Below, piece by piece: positions 9,457 to 27,534 of a stretch of DNA of 29,156 nucleotides. How positions within the stretch are numbered: the first letter of the stretch is position 1; each line of letters opens with the position of its first letter. The stretch is from a virus: IMG/VR virus record IMGVR_UViG_3300012920_000178, positions 1-29,156 of that record; one strand, written 5' to 3'. A program made the position numbers and the translations under genes. The notes under the pieces are model-generated. The model was given only the letters and a program-made list of their open reading frames with translations. It ran no database searches and was not told where the DNA came from.

Positions 9457-10651
9457 CTGGTATAAAACAGCCAGAAGTAAACAGCTTAAAAGAAGAGGCG
9501 ATTGGAATATATGGCTTATTCTAGCAGGAAGAGGTTGGGGTAAAACTAGAACAGGTGCTATGGATATTATATTATATGCTCTTATGCACCCTAATGTAAG
9601 ATGTGCAGTAGTAGCACCTACAAGTGGTGATTTAAGAAGAGTGTGTTTTGAAGGGGTATCTGGTATAGTTAACAATATTCCACACGAATGTTATAAAGAT
9701 GGATTAAATAGTTACAACAAATCTACTTCGGAGATTGAATTATTTAATGGTTCTAAAATAATGGGATTTTCAGCATCTGAGCCTGATAGATTCAGAGGAA
9801 GTCAATATCACAGGGCTTGGTGTGATGAGTTAGCTAGTTGGAGATACCCAGATGCATTTGACCAATTACAATTTGGTATGCGTTTAGGGGAAAGACCACA
9901 AACTCTAATAACCACTACTCCTAGACCAACAAATATTATTAAAAGTTTAATGGACAGAAAAGATGTATTATTAGTACAGGGTAATACATTTGAAAATAAA
10001 GATAATTTAGCAGATTCAGCATTAGATTTGTTTAGAGAGCGATATGAAGGAACAAGATTAGGTAGACAGGAACTTTATGCAGAAATATTAGAGGATTTTG
10101 AAGGTGCGTTGTGGACATATTCGCAAATTGATGCTACAAGGGTAGATACAGTACCAGAAATGAGTAGGATAGTTGTAGGAATAGACCCTGCAGTAACAGC
10201 AAACGAAAATTCAGATGAAACTGGTATTGTGGTTGCAGGAAGAGGTGTTGACGATAGGTTCTATATATTGGAAGATTTATCAGGTAAACATACTGCAGAT
10301 AATTGGGGTAGGATTGCAATTAATGCTTATTATAGACACAAGGCAAATATGCTAATAGCAGAAACAAACAATGGTGGAGACTTGGTAGGAAGATTAATCA
10401 GAAGTATAGATACAACAGTAAAATACAAATCAGTAACTGCCACCAGAGGTAAGATATTAAGAGCAGAGCCTATTTCAGCTTTATACGAACAAAAGAAAGT
10501 ATCTCATTGTGGCATTTTCAAACAATTAGAAGACCAAATGTGCAGTTATAATGGTCATAGTAAAAAATCGCCTGATAGACTAGATGCTTTAGTTTGGGCT
10601 TTAACAGATTTAAGTTCATCATCAAGAACACCAATGTGGAGGGTAACATAA
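9377..10651 (+). CDS. terL: Terminase large subunit
   Basis: An ATPase-nuclease motor of about 424 residues that packages DNA into the prohead. Walker A is L-A-G-R-G-W-G-K-T (about residues 49-57), Walker B is A-W-C-D-E-L (about 147-152), and a coupling segment reads T-T-T-P-R-P-T. The RNase H-like nuclease carries V-G-I-D-P-A-V-T, I-A-E-T-N-N-G-G-D and the last acid in S-P-D-R-L-D-A-L-V-W-A. The order matches Terminase_6-type large subunits. The start is uncertain. The frame is open over the 3' end of terS, with candidates at TTG 9326 (good GGAAGGA upstream), ATG 9347, 9362 or 9377, and later TTGs. All conserved parts lie after 9377. The stop overlaps the portal ATG (TAATG). Confidence 0.93.
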   Translation: MSSEKFCRSLTNLPTESQKQTIKLYNNWYKTARSKQLKRRGDWNIWLILAGRGWGKTRTGAMDIILYALMHPNVRCAVVAPTSGDLRRVCFEGVSGIVNNIPHECYKDGLNSYNKSTSEIELFNGSKIMGFSASEPDRFRGSQYHRAWCDELASWRYPDAFDQLQFGMRLGERPQTLITTTPRPTNIIKSLMDRKDVLLVQGNTFENKDNLADSALDLFRERYEGTRLGRQELYAEILEDFEGALWTYSQIDATRVDTVPEMSRIVVGIDPAVTANENSDETGIVVAGRGVDDRFYILEDLSGKHTADNWGRIAINAYYRHKANMLIAETNNGGDLVGRLIRSIDTTVKYKSVTATRGKILRAEPISALYEQKKVSHCGIFKQLEDQMCSYNGHSKKSPDRLDALVWALTDLSSSSRTPMWRVT

Positions 10652-12999
10652 TGGGATTTAGAGAAGCATGGAAATCTTTATTTTCATCTAAACAATACAG
10701 TGGCTATGGACAGCCAGTAGTATCTTATCATCAAACAGGATATAACAATCGAACTAAAAAAGACTCTTATGCAGACTTGGCAAAAGAAGGTTATGTAGAA
10801 AACGCAGTTGCTTTTAGATGTGTAAATGAGATTGCAAATGGTGCTTGTTCAGTAAAGTTTGTTTTAATGAGAGGAGAACAGCCTTTGGAAGAACACCCAA
10901 TATTAACTCTGCTGCAAAGACCTAATCCTACTTGTTCACAGAGTGAGTACTTTAGAGATGTTTATTCTTACTTACTATTAGCAGGTAATAGTTATTTATT
11001 AAGTATAGGCGAAGAAGGGCAAGAACCTAAAGAATTGCATACTTTAAGACCAGACAGAATACAGATAAAAACAAGTGATGGTTATTACCCAGAGGAATAC
11101 AGGTATGTTATTGATGGTAAAGTAAAAGCAGTTTACCCAGTAGATCAATTAAATGGAAGGTCAGAGTTAAAGCACATAAAAACATTTCACCCATTAGATG
11201 ACCATTTAGGATTATCTCCTATAATGCCTAGTGCTACAGATATTGACCAACATAACTTAACAAACAGACATAATGCACATCTATTAGTTAATGGAGCGAG
11301 ACCTTCAGGAGCAGTAATATATAAACCTAAAGACGAGATTGGTGCTATGACTACCTTAACAGATGCACAAAGAGAACAATTAAGAGTAGACTTAAGACAG
11401 AGATTTGAAGGTAGTGAAAACTCTGGAAGAACTATGATATTGGAAGGCGACTTTGATTACAAAGAAATGGGATTATCACCAAAAGAAATGGACTTTTCTA
11501 CTATGAAAAATATGTCTGCAAGAGATATTGCTTTAACATTCGGTGTTCCTGCACAGTTAGTAGGTATACCTGATGCACAAACTTATGCAAATATGGCAGA
11601 GGCAAGATTAGCTTTGTATGAAGAAACTATTATACCATTGTTGCAACACATAGAGTCTGATTTAAATGAATGGCTTGTGCCAATGTTTGGCGATGATTTA
11701 ACATTAAAATATGATATTGATAGCATTCCTGCTATTACTGAAAGAAGAAGAATGATTACTGATAACATACTTAGAGCAGTAAATGAAGGAGTGCTTACAA
11801 GAAATGAGGCTAGAGAAAGATTAAATCTTGAGCCCATAAGTGGTGGAGATGAGGTTTATATCCCTTCAAACTTATTCCCTCTTGGTAATCCAACACCTAA
11901 TCCACCACAACCTTTAACAGGAGATGATGCAGAGAAAATAGCTGAAGAATACTTTAATATCAAAAGAGAAGTAAGAAAAGATGTATTTACAACAGAATCA
12001 GAGGCACAAGCTAGAGCAGATGAATTAGGTTGTACAGGTATACATTCACACGATACAGGTAATGGAACAATCTACATGCCTTGTGGTAGTCATGCAGATT
12101 ATGAAAGAATTACAGGAGAAGAATTAAAACAACCACCTGACCCTAGAATGGGTGAGGGGGAAGATGTATTTGATACAGTTGGAGAGGCAAGAGCAAGAGC
12201 AGAACAAATAGGTTGCGAAGGAACACACACTTTAAGAACTCCTGATGGTAATGTTTACATGCCTTGCAGTTCACACGCAATATATCTAAGAGAAACTGGA
12301 TATAATAAGGCATTGAGTGATATAAATACAACACCAACAGAAGGTATGGCAGACGAGGCACAAAGAGGACTAGATTGGAGAGCAGAGTTTGGTAGAGGAG
12401 GTACAGCAGTTGGTTTAGCTAGAGCAAGACAGTTAGTAAGAAGAGATAATCTTTCTATATCTACAGTAAGGAGAATGTATGCTTTCTTTAGTAGACACGA
12501 AGTAGATAAACAAGCAGAAGGCTTTAATAGAGGTGAAAAAGGCTATCCTTCAAATGGAAGGATTGCTTGGGCTTTGTGGGGTGGTGATGCAGGATTCTCT
12601 TGGTCTACAAAGAAAAGAGCAGAAATACTTTCAGAGATGGAAGAAAATAAGTATGTTACAGGTGGCTATGTAGAGATAGACGAAGATGATGAGGATATGA
12701 AAAAACTATCAGGAAGAATGGCTGAAACAATAAAAAACAAAGTTACTGAACATAATGAAAAATATGGTAATGATAAAGGCAAAAGAGTTAATTCCAGAAT
12801 GCTAGAGGCAGTTTTTAGAAGAGGAGTAGGTGCATATCGAACTAATCCAGAGAGTGTAAGAAGAACAGTGCTTGGTCCTGAGCAGTGGGCTATTGCTAGA
12901 GTAAATGCCTTCCTTTATGCAGTTAGAAGAGGTCGTTTTAGAGGAGGACAATTTGATAGGGATTTATTGCCAAAAGATCACCCACTATCCACTAGATAA
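10651..12999 (+). CDS. HK97-type portal protein with four extra C-terminal modules
   Basis: Residues 1-~420 are a portal of the HK97/phage_portal family, with A-F-R-C-V-N-E-I (51-58), R-P-N-P-T-C-S-Q-S, D-I-A-L-T-F-G-V-P-A-Q-L and R-N-E-A-R-E-R-L-N-L. It forms the dodecameric DNA channel at the capsid vertex. The total of 782 residues is nearly double the usual length. The extension holds two copies of a ~45-residue module (445-489 and 506-550), a third domain (about 568-665) with G-R-G-G-T-A-V-G and R-I-A-W-A-L-W-G-G-D-A-G, and a basic fourth domain (about 683-782) with G-V-G-A-Y-R-T-N-P and E-Q-W-A-I-A-R-V-N-A-F. These small domains recur on portals, MuF proteins and proteases of other phages. 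The start follows GGAGG, and an upstream TTG extension is unlikely. Confidence 0.9.
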   Translation: MGFREAWKSLFSSKQYSGYGQPVVSYHQTGYNNRTKKDSYADLAKEGYVENAVAFRCVNEIANGACSVKFVLMRGEQPLEEHPILTLLQRPNPTCSQSEYFRDVYSYLLLAGNSYLLSIGEEGQEPKELHTLRPDRIQIKTSDGYYPEEYRYVIDGKVKAVYPVDQLNGRSELKHIKTFHPLDDHLGLSPIMPSATDIDQHNLTNRHNAHLLVNGARPSGAVIYKPKDEIGAMTTLTDAQREQLRVDLRQRFEGSENSGRTMILEGDFDYKEMGLSPKEMDFSTMKNMSARDIALTFGVPAQLVGIPDAQTYANMAEARLALYEETIIPLLQHIESDLNEWLVPMFGDDLTLKYDIDSIPAITERRRMITDNILRAVNEGVLTRNEARERLNLEPISGGDEVYIPSNLFPLGNPTPNPPQPLTGDDAEKIAEEYFNIKREVRKDVFTTESEAQARADELGCTGIHSHDTGNGTIYMPCGSHADYERITGEELKQPPDPRMGEGEDVFDTVGEARARAEQIGCEGTHTLRTPDGNVYMPCSSHAIYLRETGYNKALSDINTTPTEGMADEAQRGLDWRAEFGRGGTAVGLARARQLVRRDNLSISTVRRMYAFFSRHEVDKQAEGFNRGEKGYPSNGRIAWALWGGDAGFSWSTKKRAEILSEMEENKYVTGGYVEIDEDDEDMKKLSGRMAETIKNKVTEHNEKYGNDKGKRVNSRMLEAVFRRGVGAYRTNPESVRRTVLGPEQWAIARVNAFLYAVRRGRFRGGQFDRDLLPKDHPLSTR
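11983..12300 (+). repeat. Two diverged tandem 45-residue modules inside the portal gene
   Basis: The segments at 11983-12117 and 12166-12300 encode related modules. Both have V-F-x-T, E-A-x-A-R-A, G-C-x-G-x-H, Y-M-P-C-x-S-H-A-x-Y and R-x-T-G in register. Each has two cysteines and two histidines in matching places, suggesting a small metal- or disulfide-stabilised unit. The linker is proline-rich. Confidence 0.75.
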
Positions 13000-15005
13000 T
13001 GCCTAACTTACAGCTTAAACAAACTAGATTTGTAAATGCTAGAAAAGAATGGAGAGAAGTTAATCGAATGCGATTAAACTTCGAGAGGTCTTTGATTAGG
13101 CGATTAATTATAATGTTTAATGAAATAGGAACAAATGCCTCTGAAAAATACACTACTAATGGTAAAACAGGATTAGATTTATATTTAACAAAAACTAGAA
13201 CTTTGGTAGAAAGCACACTAATGCCTTTTTACTTTAGTGTCTTAAAAGAATTTTCAGAGAGATTTGAAAAGTATTATGCAAAAAAATTAGAAGATGCCAG
13301 AATACAAGGTATGCTTGATAAATTTATATTTACTCAAGGTAGTTCAAGAATCACAGCAATAGACGACACTACTAGAAGAAGAATACAAGATATTATATCA
13401 AAATCAGCTAGAGAAGGTCTTGGAGAACAACAAATAGCTAGAAACATAGAAAATACTTTTAAACCACAGTTTAGTAGGGCAAGAGCATCGGTTATTGCTA
13501 GAACAGAAGTGCATAGTGCATCAACATTTGCTAATCACGAAATGGCTACAGATTTAGCTAATACAGGAATTGTTCTTAAGAAAAGGTGGGTAGCTAATAC
13601 AGATGACAGAGTTAGAAACATACATTCTGAGGCGAATGGTAAAGAAGTAGGAATGGAAGAAGATTTTATAGTAGGTGGTATGCCAATGAAATATACAGGC
13701 GACCCTAGAGGAGGTGCTAAGAATGTTATTAACTGTAGGTGTACCACATTATATTTAGAGGAAGAAACAACAGTTTATGATTCACCTACTGCTACATCAA
13801 CAACAAGAATGCCAAAGAAAAGATTTTATGGATATGGAGATACAATACCTGAAGAAAAAGCATATATGGAGGCATCTTTAAGTAATGCACCTTTAAGAAT
13901 AAGAAACATTGTAAATTTATTTCCTGCTACTACAAGAATATATCAAGATAGCACACAAACAGCTTATGCAACCATTACAGGAGGTGCTGTAAATTACACA
14001 AGAGGTAGATTACAAGGTAATGCTGTAATAAATATGTCTGATTACAATACTAAAGAATTAACAGGACAAAATGTTTTTAGACACGAATATGGTCATGTCA
14101 TGGATTATCAAATAGGTAGAATATTACCAAAAAACAGACAGAAACCAGATGTTGATTATAATAAAAGAAGATTAGATCAAGAAAGATTCTCTGGTAGAGA
14201 AGGTAGCACAGAGTTAATATATTCAGCTAATTATGTTGATGAAATTAATACAGATAAGGCATTATTAAGGGTAAAACACCCAGAAACAAAAATCACCAGT
14301 AAAAATTTTGCTATTTCTAATGAGTTTGCATCTAATGAGATGAATAAAGCAGGATTTGTATTAGATTTGGATAGTCCTTTAAGAAAAACAAAAAGAATTA
14401 CTAAAAAAGATATAGATTATGCTTTGCAAGATGGAAAGCTATTTACAAAACAAGAATTACTACAGATTATAGGAGGTAAAAAAATAAATACGATAGAAGA
14501 GATACTAGATGGTTTAAAAAATGCTAGTTTTGAAGGACATTCAGATACTTACAGAAAATTGATGTTTTTAAGGTATTATAATCAAAAAGGTACTTTTGGA
14601 GTAGGAGGAACTAAACATAGTAGAAATATTTTTATAGAAATAGATTATTTACAGCGATTGGCACTTAGAAAAGGTAAGTTTGGAGGAGCAGATTCATTAA
14701 GTGAATATATAAAAAGAAAAGAATTTTTAGATACTTTTGCTGATTATTTAGGTGCAATCACAAATGAAAAAGTAGGATATGGGCATGGATTATCATATTA
14801 TGTAAAATTTGGTAGAATAGGTAGAGGTTTAGGTTCTGGAAACAGCACAGAGGCTTTCGCAAATTATATGGCTATTGCAGGTGCTGATGATGAGATTAGA
14901 GATATTTACTTTAACTTATATAAAAAGTTTGCACCTAATACTACAAAAGGCTTTGATGAGGTAATAGATGAATTAGAGAGGTATGTTAATGAGCTTAATA
15001 GTTGA
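12999..15005 (+). CDS. MuF (SPP1 gp7-like) head protein fused to a zincin-like metallopeptidase domain
   Basis: A 668-residue protein. Residues ~100-255 are a MuF/SPP1-gp7 domain, with S-V-I-A-R-T-E-V-H-S-A, W-V-A-N-T-D-D-R-V-R-N-I-H and the closing N-C-R-C (243-247). MuF proteins are minor head proteins beside the portal, packaged or injected with DNA. The C-terminal part (about 270-668) holds a zinc-protease motif H362-E-Y-G-H366-V-M-D-Y and, far downstream, S-T-E618-A-F-A-N-Y, the pattern of gluzincins related to anthrax lethal factor. The motifs support a metallopeptidase; its target is unknown. It could process internal head proteins or act in the host after injection. The gene follows the portal with TAATG and overlaps the next gene. 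Confidence 0.85.
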   Translation: MPNLQLKQTRFVNARKEWREVNRMRLNFERSLIRRLIIMFNEIGTNASEKYTTNGKTGLDLYLTKTRTLVESTLMPFYFSVLKEFSERFEKYYAKKLEDARIQGMLDKFIFTQGSSRITAIDDTTRRRIQDIISKSAREGLGEQQIARNIENTFKPQFSRARASVIARTEVHSASTFANHEMATDLANTGIVLKKRWVANTDDRVRNIHSEANGKEVGMEEDFIVGGMPMKYTGDPRGGAKNVINCRCTTLYLEEETTVYDSPTATSTTRMPKKRFYGYGDTIPEEKAYMEASLSNAPLRIRNIVNLFPATTRIYQDSTQTAYATITGGAVNYTRGRLQGNAVINMSDYNTKELTGQNVFRHEYGHVMDYQIGRILPKNRQKPDVDYNKRRLDQERFSGREGSTELIYSANYVDEINTDKALLRVKHPETKITSKNFAISNEFASNEMNKAGFVLDLDSPLRKTKRITKKDIDYALQDGKLFTKQELLQIIGGKKINTIEEILDGLKNASFEGHSDTYRKLMFLRYYNQKGTFGVGGTKHSRNIFIEIDYLQRLALRKGKFGGADSLSEYIKRKEFLDTFADYLGAITNEKVGYGHGLSYYVKFGRIGRGLGSGNSTEAFANYMAIAGADDEIRDIYFNLYKKFAPNTTKGFDEVIDELERYVNELNS

Positions 15006-22223: not shown

Positions 22224-22637
22224 ATGGCAGCTCAAAAAGGATCAGCATTACTAATGAAGATAGGAGATGGTGCTTCACCAGAAGTATTCACGACTATCGG
22301 TGGTATGCGTTCAACATCTATATCAATGAATGATGAAATGGTTGATATAACAAATAAAGATAGTGGTAGAGCAAGAGCAATACTGGCACAAGGTGGAGTG
22401 AATAGTATGACAATATCTGGTTCAGGAGTTTTTACAGATACTGCATCTGAAACAACACTAGAAGGTAAGTTTGACTCTTCTACTTTATCAAACTATCAAT
22501 TTTTAGTACCAGACTTTGGAACTTATACTGGTTCTTTTATGCTTACTACTTTAGAATATGCAGGTGAATATAATGGTGAAGTAACATATTCATTTACTTT
22601 CGAGAGTAATGGAGCAATAACTTTTGCAACTGTATAG
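22224..22637 (+). CDS. Major tail (tube) protein, GTA/TP901-1-like
   Basis: A 137-residue protein with the order expected of small tube proteins: a start with K-G-S-A-L-L-M-K-I-G-D-G (residues 5-16), T-S-I-S-M-N-D-E-M-V-D-I-T (31-43), a central S-M-T-I-S-G-S-G-V-F-T-D (60-71) and the C-terminal E-Y-A-G-E-Y-N-G-E-V-T-Y-S-F-T-F-E-S (110-127). It polymerises into the tail tube through which DNA passes. A strong AAGGAGG precedes the ATG. Confidence 0.88.
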   Translation: MAAQKGSALLMKIGDGASPEVFTTIGGMRSTSISMNDEMVDITNKDSGRARAILAQGGVNSMTISGSGVFTDTASETTLEGKFDSSTLSNYQFLVPDFGTYTGSFMLTTLEYAGEYNGEVTYSFTFESNGAITFATV

Positions 22638-22645
22638 GTGATTAA

Positions 22646-22891
22646 ATGGCTTGGGAAAAAATTGATATTACCATTGATGGAGAAACTATCAAAGGCGACA
22701 TTAATGGTAATATGATAGAAATACCTTTTATGGATTCTTTTTCTGATAATAGTGTCGTTTCCATTGGCGAAAAAACAAAAAAAGTGATAAACATAACTAA
22801 TGTTGGTAACAGAAATGAAATTTTGCAATTGGAGGTAGAAGATGACAAACAAGTTCAGAGGAGAACTAAAGGTAAAACTAAACAAGACTGA
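22646..22891 (+). CDS. Small hypothetical protein next to the tail tube gene
   Basis: An 81-residue, probably beta-rich N-terminal two thirds (I-D-I-T-I-D-G-E-T-I-K-G, then V-I-N-I-T-N-V) with a basic tail R-R-T-K-G-K-T-K. It follows the tube gene by 8 bases and overlaps the chaperone gene by 50, an unusually long overlap in this window. GGTG is a modest ribosome-binding site. The function is unknown; it may be a tail accessory or small chaperone. Confidence 0.55.
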   Translation: MAWEKIDITIDGETIKGDINGNMIEIPFMDSFSDNSVVSIGEKTKKVINITNVGNRNEILQLEVEDDKQVQRRTKGKTKQD

Positions 22892-23201
22892 CTATAATAC
22901 TAGATTAACTCTTGATGGTATTATGAGAATAGAACAGTCAACAGGAAAGCCTATTCTTAAATTAGCTAATGATTTAATGAGTAGTAATATTTCTATGACT
23001 GATATTTTAACTATAATGACCACTGCCATAAGAGGTGGGGGAAATAATATCCAACAAAAAGAAGTAGGCGATATATTATTTGAAGCAGGTATGATAGAGT
23101 CTATGAGGGCTTGTAGTTTAATTCTCACTAATACCATTACAGGAGGGGAACAGCAAGAAGATGAAAAAAAGCAGGAGGAAGTGTCAAATCAGACCGATTA
23201 G
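22842..23201 (+). CDS. Tail assembly chaperone, GTA gp10-like (G-type frame)
   Basis: A 119-residue protein of the GTA gp10 / Phage_TAC_11-like family. It has F-R-G-E-L-K-V, L-T-L-D-G-I-M-R-I-E-Q-S-T-G-K-P-I (22-38), D-I-L-T-I-M-T-T-A-I-R-G-G-G (54-67) and a Glu/Gln/Lys-rich end after T-I-T-G-G. Such chaperones coat the tape measure protein before tube assembly. GGAGG lies 6-7 bases before ATG 22842. The frame ends at TAG 23199-23201, 28 bases past a slippery site from which a -1 shift would extend the protein. Confidence 0.85.
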   Translation: MTNKFRGELKVKLNKTDYNTRLTLDGIMRIEQSTGKPILKLANDLMSSNISMTDILTIMTTAIRGGGNNIQQKEVGDILFEAGMIESMRACSLILTNTITGGEQQEDEKKQEEVSNQTD

Positions 23202-23386
23202 ATTGGCACAGGTATATACAAATCGGTATAGGAATGATGGGCATGAGTCCTGATACATTTTGGAATCTAAGTCTTTCTGAATTAAATCTAGCTATAGATG
23301 GTTTTAGAGAATTTCATGGAGGTAAGAAACCAAAGTCAATGACCAAAGATGAACTCAAAGAATTAATGGAGGTATATCCAGACTAA
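22842..23386 (+). CDS. Frameshift product of the tail assembly chaperone (GT-type fusion)
   Basis: From the slippery site A_AAA_AAG (23165-23171) the -1 frame is open to TAA at 23384-23386 and adds 71 residues. These include D-W-H-R-Y-I-Q-I-G-I-G-M-M-G-M-S-P-D, T-F-W-N-L-S-L-S-E-L-N-L-A-I-D-G and K-P-K-S-M-T-K-D-E-L. This is the GTA-type second chaperone (TAC_6-like, usually G-L-G-x-L-x-L-x-P-D-x-F-W-x-x-T-P). This frame has no start codon before its conserved region, because its upstream stop (TGA 23162-23164) directly precedes the slip site. Its TAA overlaps the tape-measure ATG as TAATG. The ~181-residue fusion is analogous to gpGT of lambda. Confidence 0.78.
23165..23171 (+). promoter_or_regulatory. 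Programmed -1 frameshift site A_AAA_AAG
   Basis: In the chaperone frame the codons are GAA AAA AAG, placing the heptamer A AAA AAG exactly in X_XXY_YYZ phase, one of the most efficient bacterial -1 slip sites. An SD-like AGGAGGGG lies 16 bases upstream (23141-23148). An inverted repeat ACCGATT / AATCGGT (23193-23199 and 23221-23227) could form a stem 21 bases downstream. The distances are longer than in textbook stimulators. Confidence 0.75.
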
Positions 23387-25521
23387 TGGCAACTGTAGAT
23401 ACATTACAGGTTAGAATAACTGCTGATATGAAAGACCTAAAAAGGTCTTTAAAAGAAGTAGAGAGAAATACAAAACAATCAACTCAAAATATGAGTAATA
23501 GCTTTAGAAAGCTAGGGAATGTTGTAAAGGTAGTTGCAGGTGCAGTAATTGTAAGAGAGCTTGGAAGAGGAGCAATTGCAGCAGTCAATTTTGCAGCAGA
23601 CATTGAGGAAATGCAGGCAAAATCTTCAGTAGTTTTTGGTGCTTTTGCAGGTGATGTTAGAAATCAATTAGCAGTTTTTGCAGATGAGGTAGGTAGATCG
23701 AGGTTTGAACTAGAAGGTATGGCATCTAGCATTCAGGATACTTTTGTTCCTCTAGGATTCGCCAGAGGTGAGGCATCTCAATTATCAGTACAATTAACAA
23801 AGTTAGCTACAGATGTAGCATCTTTTAACAATGCATCTGATGTTGATACCATGAGAGCATTTCAAAGTGCTTTGGTAGGTAATCATGAAACTGTTAGAAG
23901 ATTTGGTATTGTGATTACAGAGGCAACATTAGAACAAGAATTATTTAGAATGGGAATAACAAAAGCCAAAGATGAGGTAAGTAATGCAGAGAAAGTACAA
24001 GCTAGACTTAATTTGATACTAGCAGGAACAACAGATGCTCATGGAGATGCAGCGAGAACTGCAGATAGTTTTGCTAATAGACAAAAGGCTTTGAAAGCAG
24101 CTACTGATGAATTAATGAATAGTTTAGGACAAATATTTATGCCTTTAATGTCAAGCATACAAAATAGTCTGATAAATGCAGCAACAGCAGCAAATGATTT
24201 TCTTATAAAACTTGGTTTAGTAGGTGATAAGATAGGGGAAATAAGATTACAAAAATTAAAAGCAGAATTACAAGAAGTTAATACAGAATTGCAAAATCTT
24301 GGTGAGGTATCAGATGGTGTTAGCGATGATCTAGTATTATTTGGTAATGTGACTAGTGAGGGTGAAACAAGATTATTTGAATTACAAACTAGAGCAAATG
24401 CTTTATCTAAACTAATTAAACAAATAGAAGATGAAAGAACCAGATTAGGTAGAAATGAAGTCAATCAAAAGAAAGTAGATGAAACACAGCCTAAAACAGA
24501 AACTTTAACTAAATCGCAAATCAAAGCTAATGAAGATTTAAAAAAATCTATTGAAGACGTCAGATTTGAAAATCAATTATTAGAGGCTCAAATGAGAGGA
24601 GCAAGTGAGGCAGATTTAGAAATAATGAGGTTGAGAAAAGAGCATCAAGGTACAAATGAAGAACAACTCTCATTTTTAGTAGAGGAGACTAGATTAAGAC
24701 AAGCATTACAGCAACAAATGGAAGATGAGATTGAGGCATCAAAATTACAACAAGAACAAGCCTTACTACAAGTACAAAAAGAAAAAGAACAATTAGATTT
24801 GTTAAGAGAATTAGGTATGGCAAACCAAGATTTTTCTGCAGAGATGCAAACATTAAAAGAGGCATTAGAGGGTGGCACGATTACTACTGATCAATATAAT
24901 GAGGCATTAGCTAGATTAAATATTAAAATATTTGAATCTACAGAGGCAGGGGGTATTTTAATGGAGGGGTTAAATAGAACCATGGATTCTTTATCTACAA
25001 CAATGGCTGATAGCTTAATGCACATGGGTGAAGGTTGGAAGGGTTTTAGAGATAGTTTAAAAAATATTGTTAGAGATATTATAGCACAATTCATTAAGGT
25101 GCAAATACAGGCACAGATTACCAGAGCAGTAACTTCTATGGGAGGAGGTGGTAGTATGTTTTCTTCTATAGGTTCTTTATTTGGTGGAGGTGGTGGAGGT
25201 GGTGCTCCTACTCCTTCTTATGGATTTGCACAAACAGGAGCAACAGGAGTACACAGCAGAAGTCCTTATGTAGTAGGTGAGCGTGGTCCAGAACTATTTG
25301 TTCCTAATACTTCAGGCTCTATTATGAGTAATGCACAGTCCAGAAAAGTATCTGGAAGTGGGGGTGTAACAGTAAATCAAACATTAAATTTTGATGTAGG
25401 TGTAGCACAAACTGTAAGAAGTGAAATATTACAATTAATGCCTACTATAAAACAACAATCAGTAGATGCAGTTATAGATGCAAAAGAAAGAGGTGGCAGA
25501 ATGGCAGATGTATTCAAATGA
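23386..25521 (+). CDS. Tail tape measure protein
   Basis: A 711-residue protein, the longest in the tail block, which fixes tail length. The N-terminus L-Q-V-R-I-T-A-D-M-K-D-L-K-R-S-L (residues 7-22) is followed by a hydrophobic helix (V-V-K-V-V-A-G-A-V-I-V). A conserved tape-measure core follows, with V-F-G-A-F-A-G-D-V, D-T-F-V-P-L-G-F and F-Q-S-A-L-V-G-N-H-E-T. Extended heptads occupy about 280-480. A late F-R-D-S-L-K-N-I-V-R-D-I-I-A-Q precedes a glycine-rich stretch with several G-G-G runs. The end A-Q-T-G-A-T-G-V, V-V-G-E-R-G-P-E-L-F-V-P-N is the usual tape measure C-terminus. It starts from TAATG with the chaperone fusion stop. Confidence 0.92.
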   Translation: MATVDTLQVRITADMKDLKRSLKEVERNTKQSTQNMSNSFRKLGNVVKVVAGAVIVRELGRGAIAAVNFAADIEEMQAKSSVVFGAFAGDVRNQLAVFADEVGRSRFELEGMASSIQDTFVPLGFARGEASQLSVQLTKLATDVASFNNASDVDTMRAFQSALVGNHETVRRFGIVITEATLEQELFRMGITKAKDEVSNAEKVQARLNLILAGTTDAHGDAARTADSFANRQKALKAATDELMNSLGQIFMPLMSSIQNSLINAATAANDFLIKLGLVGDKIGEIRLQKLKAELQEVNTELQNLGEVSDGVSDDLVLFGNVTSEGETRLFELQTRANALSKLIKQIEDERTRLGRNEVNQKKVDETQPKTETLTKSQIKANEDLKKSIEDVRFENQLLEAQMRGASEADLEIMRLRKEHQGTNEEQLSFLVEETRLRQALQQQMEDEIEASKLQQEQALLQVQKEKEQLDLLRELGMANQDFSAEMQTLKEALEGGTITTDQYNEALARLNIKIFESTEAGGILMEGLNRTMDSLSTTMADSLMHMGEGWKGFRDSLKNIVRDIIAQFIKVQIQAQITRAVTSMGGGGSMFSSIGSLFGGGGGGGAPTPSYGFAQTGATGVHSRSPYVVGERGPELFVPNTSGSIMSNAQSRKVSGSGGVTVNQTLNFDVGVAQTVRSEILQLMPTIKQQSVDAVIDAKERGGRMADVFK

Positions 25522-26150
25522 CGACATATCCAGTAACATTTCCAACAACTATTGCTCCTAGAGATACTAACTTTAGATTAAATAGGATAGTTGGTGTGAA
25601 TGAAAGTATTTATACAGGACAACAACAAGTTTATCAGTATTCAGGTGAATATTGGGAGGTAGATATTACTATGCCTCCAATGAGAACTGCTACTGCTAGA
25701 GAATTTGTATCTTTTTTAGTAAGTTTAAGAGGACAATATGGAAGTTTTTTTGTTGGTGATTTTGATGCTAAAACTGCTTTAGGAACTGCAGGAACTTCTG
25801 CAGGTACTCCTTTAGTAAATGGAGCAGACCAGACAGGTAATACTTTAGTTTGTGATGGTGCTCCTAATAGTCAGACAGGATATTTAAAAGCAGGAGATTA
25901 CATACAAATAGGTAGTGGTTCAACACAAAGATTGCACATGGTAGTAGCAGATTCAAATTCTGATAGTAGTGGAAACTTTACTCTTTCAATAGAACCTGCA
26001 TTAAGAGTTTCTCCTGCTAATAATACAGCTATAACAGTAGCAAATACAAAAGGTGTATTTAGATTAGCTACAAATGTAGTAGAATGGAATGCAAATCAAG
26101 CGTCAACTTATGGTATTTCTTTTTCTGCAAGAGAGGTAATTGATGTATGA
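25518..26150 (+). CDS. Distal tail protein (putative)
   Basis: A 210-residue beta-rich protein directly after the tape measure, overlapping it by 4 bases. Signature-like parts are Y-S-G-E-Y-W-E-V-D-I-T-M-P-P-M (residues 41-55), A-R-E-F-V-S-F-L-V-S-L-R-G-Q-Y-G-S-F (60-77) and a C-terminal F-R-L-A-T-N-V-V-E-W-N. The middle (about 90-165) looks like an inserted beta domain. Position matches GTA gp12 / distal tail proteins that begin the baseplate-like tip. Detailed family membership is uncertain. Confidence 0.68.
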   Translation: MTTYPVTFPTTIAPRDTNFRLNRIVGVNESIYTGQQQVYQYSGEYWEVDITMPPMRTATAREFVSFLVSLRGQYGSFFVGDFDAKTALGTAGTSAGTPLVNGADQTGNTLVCDGAPNSQTGYLKAGDYIQIGSGSTQRLHMVVADSNSDSSGNFTLSIEPALRVSPANNTAITVANTKGVFRLATNVVEWNANQASTYGISFSAREVIDV

Positions 26151-27100
26151 GAACAACTTCTGCAGCATATAGAGCACAAGCTAGATCAAATAAAGTTAAG
26201 ATTGCAGTATTCATTGAGGCAACCTTTTCATCTGGTGCAGTCAATCTTTGGAGTGGATATGGAAATTTAACTTATGCAGGAGTTACTTATGCAGGTGCAG
26301 GCAGTTTATTAGACATTAGCACTGTAACTGAAACTTTAGAAACAAGAGCAAATGGTTTTACTTGCCAACTAAATGGTTTAGATGCATCTTTACTTTCTAT
26401 AGCTTTATCAGAGCCTTATACAGGCAGACCATTTAAAGCAAAGATAGGATTTGTAGCACCAGACCCTGATCAAGAAACAACATTTGCTATCAAAGTACAA
26501 TCTACTTCTGGAGGTAATAAATATTTTATAGAAAATGAACAACAAGAAACAATAGAAGTAAAGTATGGTAATAAATATATATTTGATACTTCAGATTCCT
26601 CTGTAAGTGGACATCCATTTTTATTATCTACAACAAGTGATGGGCATCATGGAGGTGGTAGCACTTACAATACAGGTGTTACTTATTTTTTAGATGATGT
26701 AGCAGTAAGTGAAACAGATTATAAAAATACCACTAATTATAATGCAGCTGCAAAAAGACAATTGAAGTTTACTGTTCCTGCAGAAGGTTCTTTTCCTGCA
26801 AACTTGTATTATTTTTGCCATATTCATTCTGGTATGGGGGGTAGTGTTACAGGATATAGTTCAATAATTGTATCAGATACTTACACAATATTTGATGGAT
26901 TTATGGATGTGATGAGATTAACTGATAGTGGTGGTAAAGCAAATATATCATTAAATTGTGAAAATCAACTTATAGCATTAGAGAAACCTAACATTAGAAG
27001 ATATACCCCAGAGGATCAAAAGATAGATTTTCCTAATGACAAAGGCTTGGAATATGTAGCAGCACTACAGGATGATGAGGTAGTATGGGGAAGAGGATAA
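26147..27100 (+). CDS. Tail hub protein (DUF2163/GTA gp13-like) with an inserted cupredoxin-like domain
   Basis: A 317-residue protein. The N-terminal ~110 residues (L-W-S-G-Y-G-N-L-T-Y-A-G-V-T-Y-A-G-A-G, 34-52; G-F-T-C-Q-L-N-G-L-D) and the C-terminal end (F-D-G-F-M-D-V-M-R-L-T-D-S-G-G-K, 249-264) follow the DUF2163 / GTA gp13 pattern of a tail-tip hub. Between them, about residues 113-243 form a separate beta domain with G-H156-P-F, a histidine-rich turn (D-G-H-H-G-G-G), and Y-Y-F-C224-H-I-H227-S-G-M230-G-G. This matches the His-Cys-His-Met copper ligands of cupredoxins. It overlaps the next gene by 16 bases. Confidence 0.75.
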   Translation: MRTTSAAYRAQARSNKVKIAVFIEATFSSGAVNLWSGYGNLTYAGVTYAGAGSLLDISTVTETLETRANGFTCQLNGLDASLLSIALSEPYTGRPFKAKIGFVAPDPDQETTFAIKVQSTSGGNKYFIENEQQETIEVKYGNKYIFDTSDSSVSGHPFLLSTTSDGHHGGGSTYNTGVTYFLDDVAVSETDYKNTTNYNAAAKRQLKFTVPAEGSFPANLYYFCHIHSGMGGSVTGYSSIIVSDTYTIFDGFMDVMRLTDSGGKANISLNCENQLIALEKPNIRRYTPEDQKIDFPNDKGLEYVAALQDDEVVWGRG

Positions 27101-27534
27101 ACAATTGGCAGATAGCTTATCAATCTGAAATACAAAAACCTAGAAAATTTGAAAGAGGCAAAACAGACTGTGGTATGTTTGTCTTAGAATGCATAAGTAA
27201 ATATACAGACAATAATTTGTATGATAAATATAAAAATACATACTCTAGCCTTCATCAATGTATAAAACTTTTTAAACAAAATAATATTAAAGGTAATACT
27301 CTTAATGAGTATATAATTAATTTTTTTGATAAACAATTTGAAAGAGTGCATATTAATTTAGCTCAGAGAGGTGATATTGTTGGATTTAATTCTGATAAAA
27401 TTAGCAAATCAAATAAAATGATTGATAGTGGTTTTACAGTTGGTATTATGTGTGAGGGGTTTGGTAGATTTGTAATGAGTGGTGGATACGAGGATATACC
27501 TATAGAAAATCTACAAATGGCTTGGAGGGTTTAA
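27085..27534 (+). CDS. Tail-associated cysteine peptidase-like protein (GTA gp14 / DUF6950-like)
   Basis: A 149-residue protein with K-F-E-R-G-K-T-D-C29-G-M-F-V (residues 21-33), the nucleophile-helix pattern of NlpC/P60-like tail peptidases, then A-Q-R-G-D-I-V-G-F-N (93-102) and a C-terminal G-I-M-C-E-G-F-G-R-F-V-M-S-G-G ... M-A-W-R-V that is typical of this small phage family. NlpC/P60 enzymes cut peptidoglycan stem peptides, so it may help tail penetration. A usual catalytic His is not clear (H90 in V-H-I-N-L is a candidate), so activity is uncertain. GAGG precedes ATG 27085. The stop is followed immediately by the next ATG. Confidence 0.72.
   Translation: MGKRINNWQIAYQSEIQKPRKFERGKTDCGMFVLECISKYTDNNLYDKYKNTYSSLHQCIKLFKQNNIKGNTLNEYIINFFDKQFERVHINLAQRGDIVGFNSDKISKSNKMIDSGFTVGIMCEGFGRFVMSGGYEDIPIENLQMAWRV

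Follow-up and report, generated by a model that had tools for sequence, protein, structure and literature searches.

A probable programmed -1 frameshift joins two tail assembly chaperones of gene transfer agent families in a phage genome and its relatives

The tail assembly chaperone locus of the viral record analyzed here almost certainly gives rise to two proteins by a programmed -1 frameshift, namely a gpG-like protein of 119 residues and a gpGT-like fusion of 181 residues, in which two chaperones of gene transfer agent (GTA) families are joined. The stretch of DNA studied, referred to as the window, comprises the 29,156 bases of IMG/VR record IMGVR_UViG_3300012920_000178 (32% G+C). It is a marine phage genome with a replicative primase-helicase (DnaB/Toprim), a terminase and an HK97-type capsid, and by its gene content it is not a GTA. 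The gene order at the locus is canonical, with all features on the plus strand: the major tail (tube) protein (22224-22637; PF06199, E=1.2e-38; TIGR02126 above its cut-off) is followed by the chaperones and then by the tape measure protein (23386-25521), which was recognized through PHROG tape-measure matches such as phrog_1535 (E=1.6e-17).

The zero frame of chaperone 1 runs from the ATG at 22842 to the TAG at 23199-23201 and encodes 119 amino acids that match the GTA-gp10 family PF11836 (E=4.2e-12; 46.4 bits against a curated cut-off of 27.8). A run of seven A's at 23164-23170 is read in the codons GAA AAA AAG, which places the slippery heptamer A_AAA_AAG (23165-23171) in the zero-frame phase, as originally predicted, within the last 12 codons of the gene. 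The -1 frame is closed by a TGA at 23162-23164, directly 5' of the heptamer, and is then open from 23165 to the TAA at 23384-23386, where the stop and the tape-measure ATG (23386) overlap as TAATG. Its first ATG, GTG or TTG is the ATG at 23234, corresponding to residue 24 and lying inside the domain of the second chaperone, PF09550 (E=1.7e-11; 44.8 bits against a curated cut-off of 23.4); the match of the same protein to TIGR02216 was 34.9 bits, below the cut-off of 56.1. Translated in silico, a -1 shift at the heptamer yields a fusion of 181 residues, with a T-like extension of 71 new residues (23165-23386) and the junction EKKAGGSVK. The original prediction had described this closed and start-less -1 frame, its coding for the second GTA chaperone, its overlap with the tape measure gene, the length of the extension and the junction peptide, and all of its coordinates for the locus proved correct. 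In the annotation of the window, the 181-residue fusion should be added.

In-phase X_XXY_YYZ motifs occur at a rate of 0.0098 per codon in the genes of the window (approximately one per 100 codons), and the probability of finding one in the 11-codon overlap, calculated from the window sequence alone, is p ~0.10. Since a chance occurrence of about 10% is to be expected in such an AT-rich window, the single sequence is only suggestive, and it is conservation that decides. Purifying selection acts on the -1 frame: past the first stop, a pN of 0.15 and a pS of 0.54 were obtained for the pair formed by the window and its relative L011, and neither of the other frames was low.

Two protein scans of IMG/VR provided 17 loci, from which 11 distinct relatives of the first round carrying both chaperones were obtained. 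In all 11, chaperone 1 is kept, the second chaperone occupies the -1 frame, its domain is not preceded by a start, and an in-phase heptamer is present. The letters of the heptamer vary by lineage (AAAAAAG, AAAAAAC, AAAAAAA, and GGGAAAC), and the X_XXY_YYZ form is kept. The heptamer of phage lambda is G_GGA_AAG, a sequence that occurs in some of the relatives as well. In eight weaker-matching GenBank phage records, the second chaperone is likewise in the -1 frame, with an in-phase heptamer; seven of them are annotated with two separate genes or with a truncated second gene, and the eighth, Streptomyces phage OnionKnight, has a joined CDS in its annotation, with GGGAAAC in phase. Gene callers, which had been expected to miss the extension, truncate or drop the second half in deposited relatives. 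No near DNA relative of the window was found among GenBank phages, and a comparison of the chaperone profiles with solved structures gave no confident relative.

With larger scans, the number of non-redundant phage pairs rose to 58 (collapsed at 90% identity); these pairs share ancestry, so that the counts do not represent independent events. Of the 58 pairs, 57 showed both the -1 relation and an in-phase heptamer, most often A_AAA_AAN or G_GGA_AAN; among these 57, no start codon lay 15 nt or less from the first stop in 50, and a -1-frame stop was located at most 9 codons 5' of the heptamer in 50. In the lone exception (L111, 1350-1500), chaperone 1 has an indel of one base in its tail, just upstream of an intact heptamer, probably through an assembly error or because the copy is broken. 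As a control for phase, GGGAAAN was correctly phased in 30 pairs and occurred in neither of the other two phases (0 and 0), whereas A-runs alone were less phase-specific (9, 22, and 27 across the phases). Across the relatives, the conservation of the heptamer goes far beyond chance, and the homologue comparison called for by the original prediction came out in its favor.

Among the alternatives, transcriptional slippage fares best and is nevertheless very improbable. RNA polymerase would add an A on the A run, so that part of the mRNA would code for the fusion directly, which is in keeping with the seven consecutive A's of the window and with the frequency of A-run lineages among the relatives. 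At this place, however, approximately half of the phage relatives have G_GGA_AAN, which contains only three A's and is strictly in the phase expected for ribosomes (0/0/30). Slippage of the polymerase needs a long homopolymer and should not be supported by such a short mixed run.

Still less probable is a separate gene for the second chaperone with an internal start, for example at the ATG at 23234 or at a non-standard start codon after AGGAGGA (23174-23180). This Shine-Dalgarno-like sequence lies in the overlap in the window and in L011, separate starts exist in several GTA clusters, and gene callers place internal starts in the phage relatives. The -1 frame, however, has no ATG, GTG or TTG near AGGAGGA, which is missing from relatives other than L011, and a protein beginning at 23234 would lack the invariant L and W of the PF09550 domain; what the phages conserve is the heptamer and not a start. 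An assembly or sequencing error or a broken gene, as might be suspected for a junction within a homopolymer of a metagenomic contig, is refuted for practical purposes by the same -1 relation in the near-identical contig L001 and in the 57 phage pairs, GenBank Rhizobium phage RHph_Y3_1 included, and by the conservation of both frames as protein.

For the preferred reading, a programmed ribosomal frameshift, we infer the following course of events. Most ribosomes translating chaperone 1 (22842-23201) would terminate at 23201 and release the gpG-like protein, and a minority would slip back by one base on A_AAA_AAG and go on reading in the -1 frame as far as 23386. The simplest mechanism would be a simultaneous -1 shift of two tRNAs on the heptamer, as in lambda G/GT, whose proteins do not occur in mature virions. 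By analogy with lambda (PMC5009743), the shared N-terminal part may coat the tape measure protein, the C-terminal extension may recruit the tail tube protein, and the rate of frameshifting would set the ratio between the two forms.

Long-tailed phages widely conserve -1 frameshifting at the tail chaperone position (PMC5009743), and the chaperones of R. capsulatus phages are said to employ it as a rule (PMC8601537). With respect to lambda G/GT, in the account of Xu, Hendrix and Duda (2004) as relayed in PMC5009743, the window shares the position between tube and tape measure and the start-less second frame, and it differs in its protein families, PF11836 and PF09550, and in the heptamer A_AAA_AAG. 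Of the marks of lambda G/GT-type recoding, overlapping ORFs between tube and tape measure genes, a start-less -1 ORF and a conserved in-phase X_XXY_YYZ were found, in agreement with the lambda-style recoding originally proposed. The OnionKnight gp15/gp16 pair resembles the window in being an annotated frameshift-joined tail assembly chaperone with a weakly similar second part, but the profile used here did not detect its chaperone 1 as PF11836-like. Recoding had also been considered noteworthy in a GTA-like tail; it is near-universal in the phage relatives of this chaperone family, where, as far as the sequences indicate, this known kind of recoding is the rule and not the exception.

Candidate stimulatory elements were also inspected. 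A hairpin with the stem GUGUCAA/UUGGCAC is a tentative candidate at 23180-23209, approximately 9 nt 3' of the heptamer. In the A_AAA_AAN clade its covariation was 0.152 as compared with 0.086 in shuffled alignments, a difference based on few independent changes in a region that codes in two frames, and a downstream hairpin in this clade is possible. The folding of G_GGA_AAC relatives revealed no such hairpin and was no better than that of shuffles. A generally conserved downstream RNA structure was accordingly rejected, the modest hairpin being confined to the A_AAA_AAN clade. The same applies to a conserved Shine-Dalgarno stimulator, as neither AGGAGGGG (23141-23148) nor AGGAGGA is generally kept in relatives.

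What deserves to be followed is the comparison with GTAs, which provides a test of how tail assembly changed as phages became gene transfer agents. In the window itself, the proteins at 25518-27531 were compared with NCBIfam, which contains the g12-g14 families of RcGTA (TIGR02217-02219), and had no match. Relatives of RcGTA were gathered with the Rcc01691 sequence, after the tail tube of one locus had matched Rcc01691 over its full length; they are labeled Rhodobacteraceae by inference from tail-tube identities of approximately 75 to 91% to RcGTA. The RcGTA cluster was thus assessed through its relatives, R. capsulatus itself being outside the sample and the best tail-tube identity being 91%. 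None of the 49 RcGTA-like pairs had an in-phase heptamer, and all 49 had a start codon at or near the first stop, mostly as ATGA or GTGA; in 9 of them the second gene was not even in the -1 frame. The window and the RcGTA-like g10 (Rcc01692) and g10.1/g10.5 (Rcc01693) genes therefore share both protein families and the place in the tail cluster, but the latter have an independent start and no heptamer. In a 2024 paper (PMC11409702), tail chaperones 1 and 2 of RcGTA are presented as two separate genes, and the word "frameshift" does not occur. No description of frameshifted chaperones from RcGTA-type GTAs turned up in a literature search of incomplete coverage.

Different observations were made in GTA head-tail clusters of Rhizobiales, for example that of Ochrobactrum sp. 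CGA5 (L031), in which TIGR02216-02219 all scored above their cut-offs, so that the RcGTA type was verified in this one case. These clusters share both families with the window, with the second gene commonly in the -1 frame and often with an in-phase heptamer; they differ from it in being GC-rich and cellular, in their heptamers (A_AAC_CCY, C_CCT_TTN or G_GGA_AAG), and in frequently having a TTGA overlap, a rival start that may offer a second route. The heptamer A_AAC_CCT or A_AAC_CCC often lies directly before the stop. In the first cellular set, AAACCCN was correctly phased in 27 cases and out of phase in 1, and a heptamer was present in 47 of 57 pairs without a nearby ATG compared to 3 of 17 pairs with one. 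The phase specificity of C_CCT_TTC in cellular clusters is partly confounded, as the -1 frame there encodes a conserved P-F-P-W. A second cellular sample, from the order of Brucella, had a -1 heptamer in 31 of 65 pairs, 26 of these without a nearby start.

The notion that the classical GTA has separate chaperone genes consequently holds for the RcGTA-like clusters but not for many Rhizobiales clusters, which keep an in-phase heptamer. Homologues with their own start and no slippery site, which the original prediction had named as counter-evidence, were found among remote cellular/GTA clusters and not among the phage relatives. The best-studied GTA family seems to have dropped the frameshift-made fusion chaperone, which the phage relatives and many sister GTAs keep. 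We lean slightly towards a scenario in which GTAs inherited the chaperone frameshift at phage domestication, Rhizobiales retained A_AAC_CCY or C_CCT_TTN, and RcGTA-like Rhodobacteraceae replaced it by an ATGA/GTGA stop-start overlap, with tails that would lack a gpGT fusion. In the Rhizobiales loci L027, L030-L035, L042-L045, and L225-L258, the end of g10 carries an in-phase A_AAC_CC[TC] and the -1 frame encodes the second chaperone, several of these loci having no start at all. They probably represent cases of unannotated frameshifting in GTAs.

Further features of the window were noted. A small gene (22646-22891, 81 aa) lies after the tail tube gene and overlaps the start of chaperone 1 by 50 bases; it occupies the same place in dozens of relatives, with 25 to 61% identity apart from near-identical copies, and Pfam and PHROG searches gave no confident family match. 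The hub (g13-like) protein (26147-27100), for which there was no TIGR02218 match, contains at residues ~110 to 234 an insert that resembles other phage tail/baseplate proteins (phrog_708 and phrog_677), has a cupredoxin-like appearance and includes YYFCHIHSGMGG. The portal protein (10633-12999) is unusually long, with 788 aa from the ATG at 10633, and its portal domain is followed by a cysteine-containing DUF3721-type repeat that is present twice. The Mu F-like head protein (12999-15005) has a long C-terminal part with an HEYGH (HExxH zincin-like) motif. Genes for a ParB-like protein, a Tet/JBP-type 2OG-Fe(II) oxygenase and a class II glutamine amidotransferase follow one another at 62-2254 and are perhaps DNA base modification genes.
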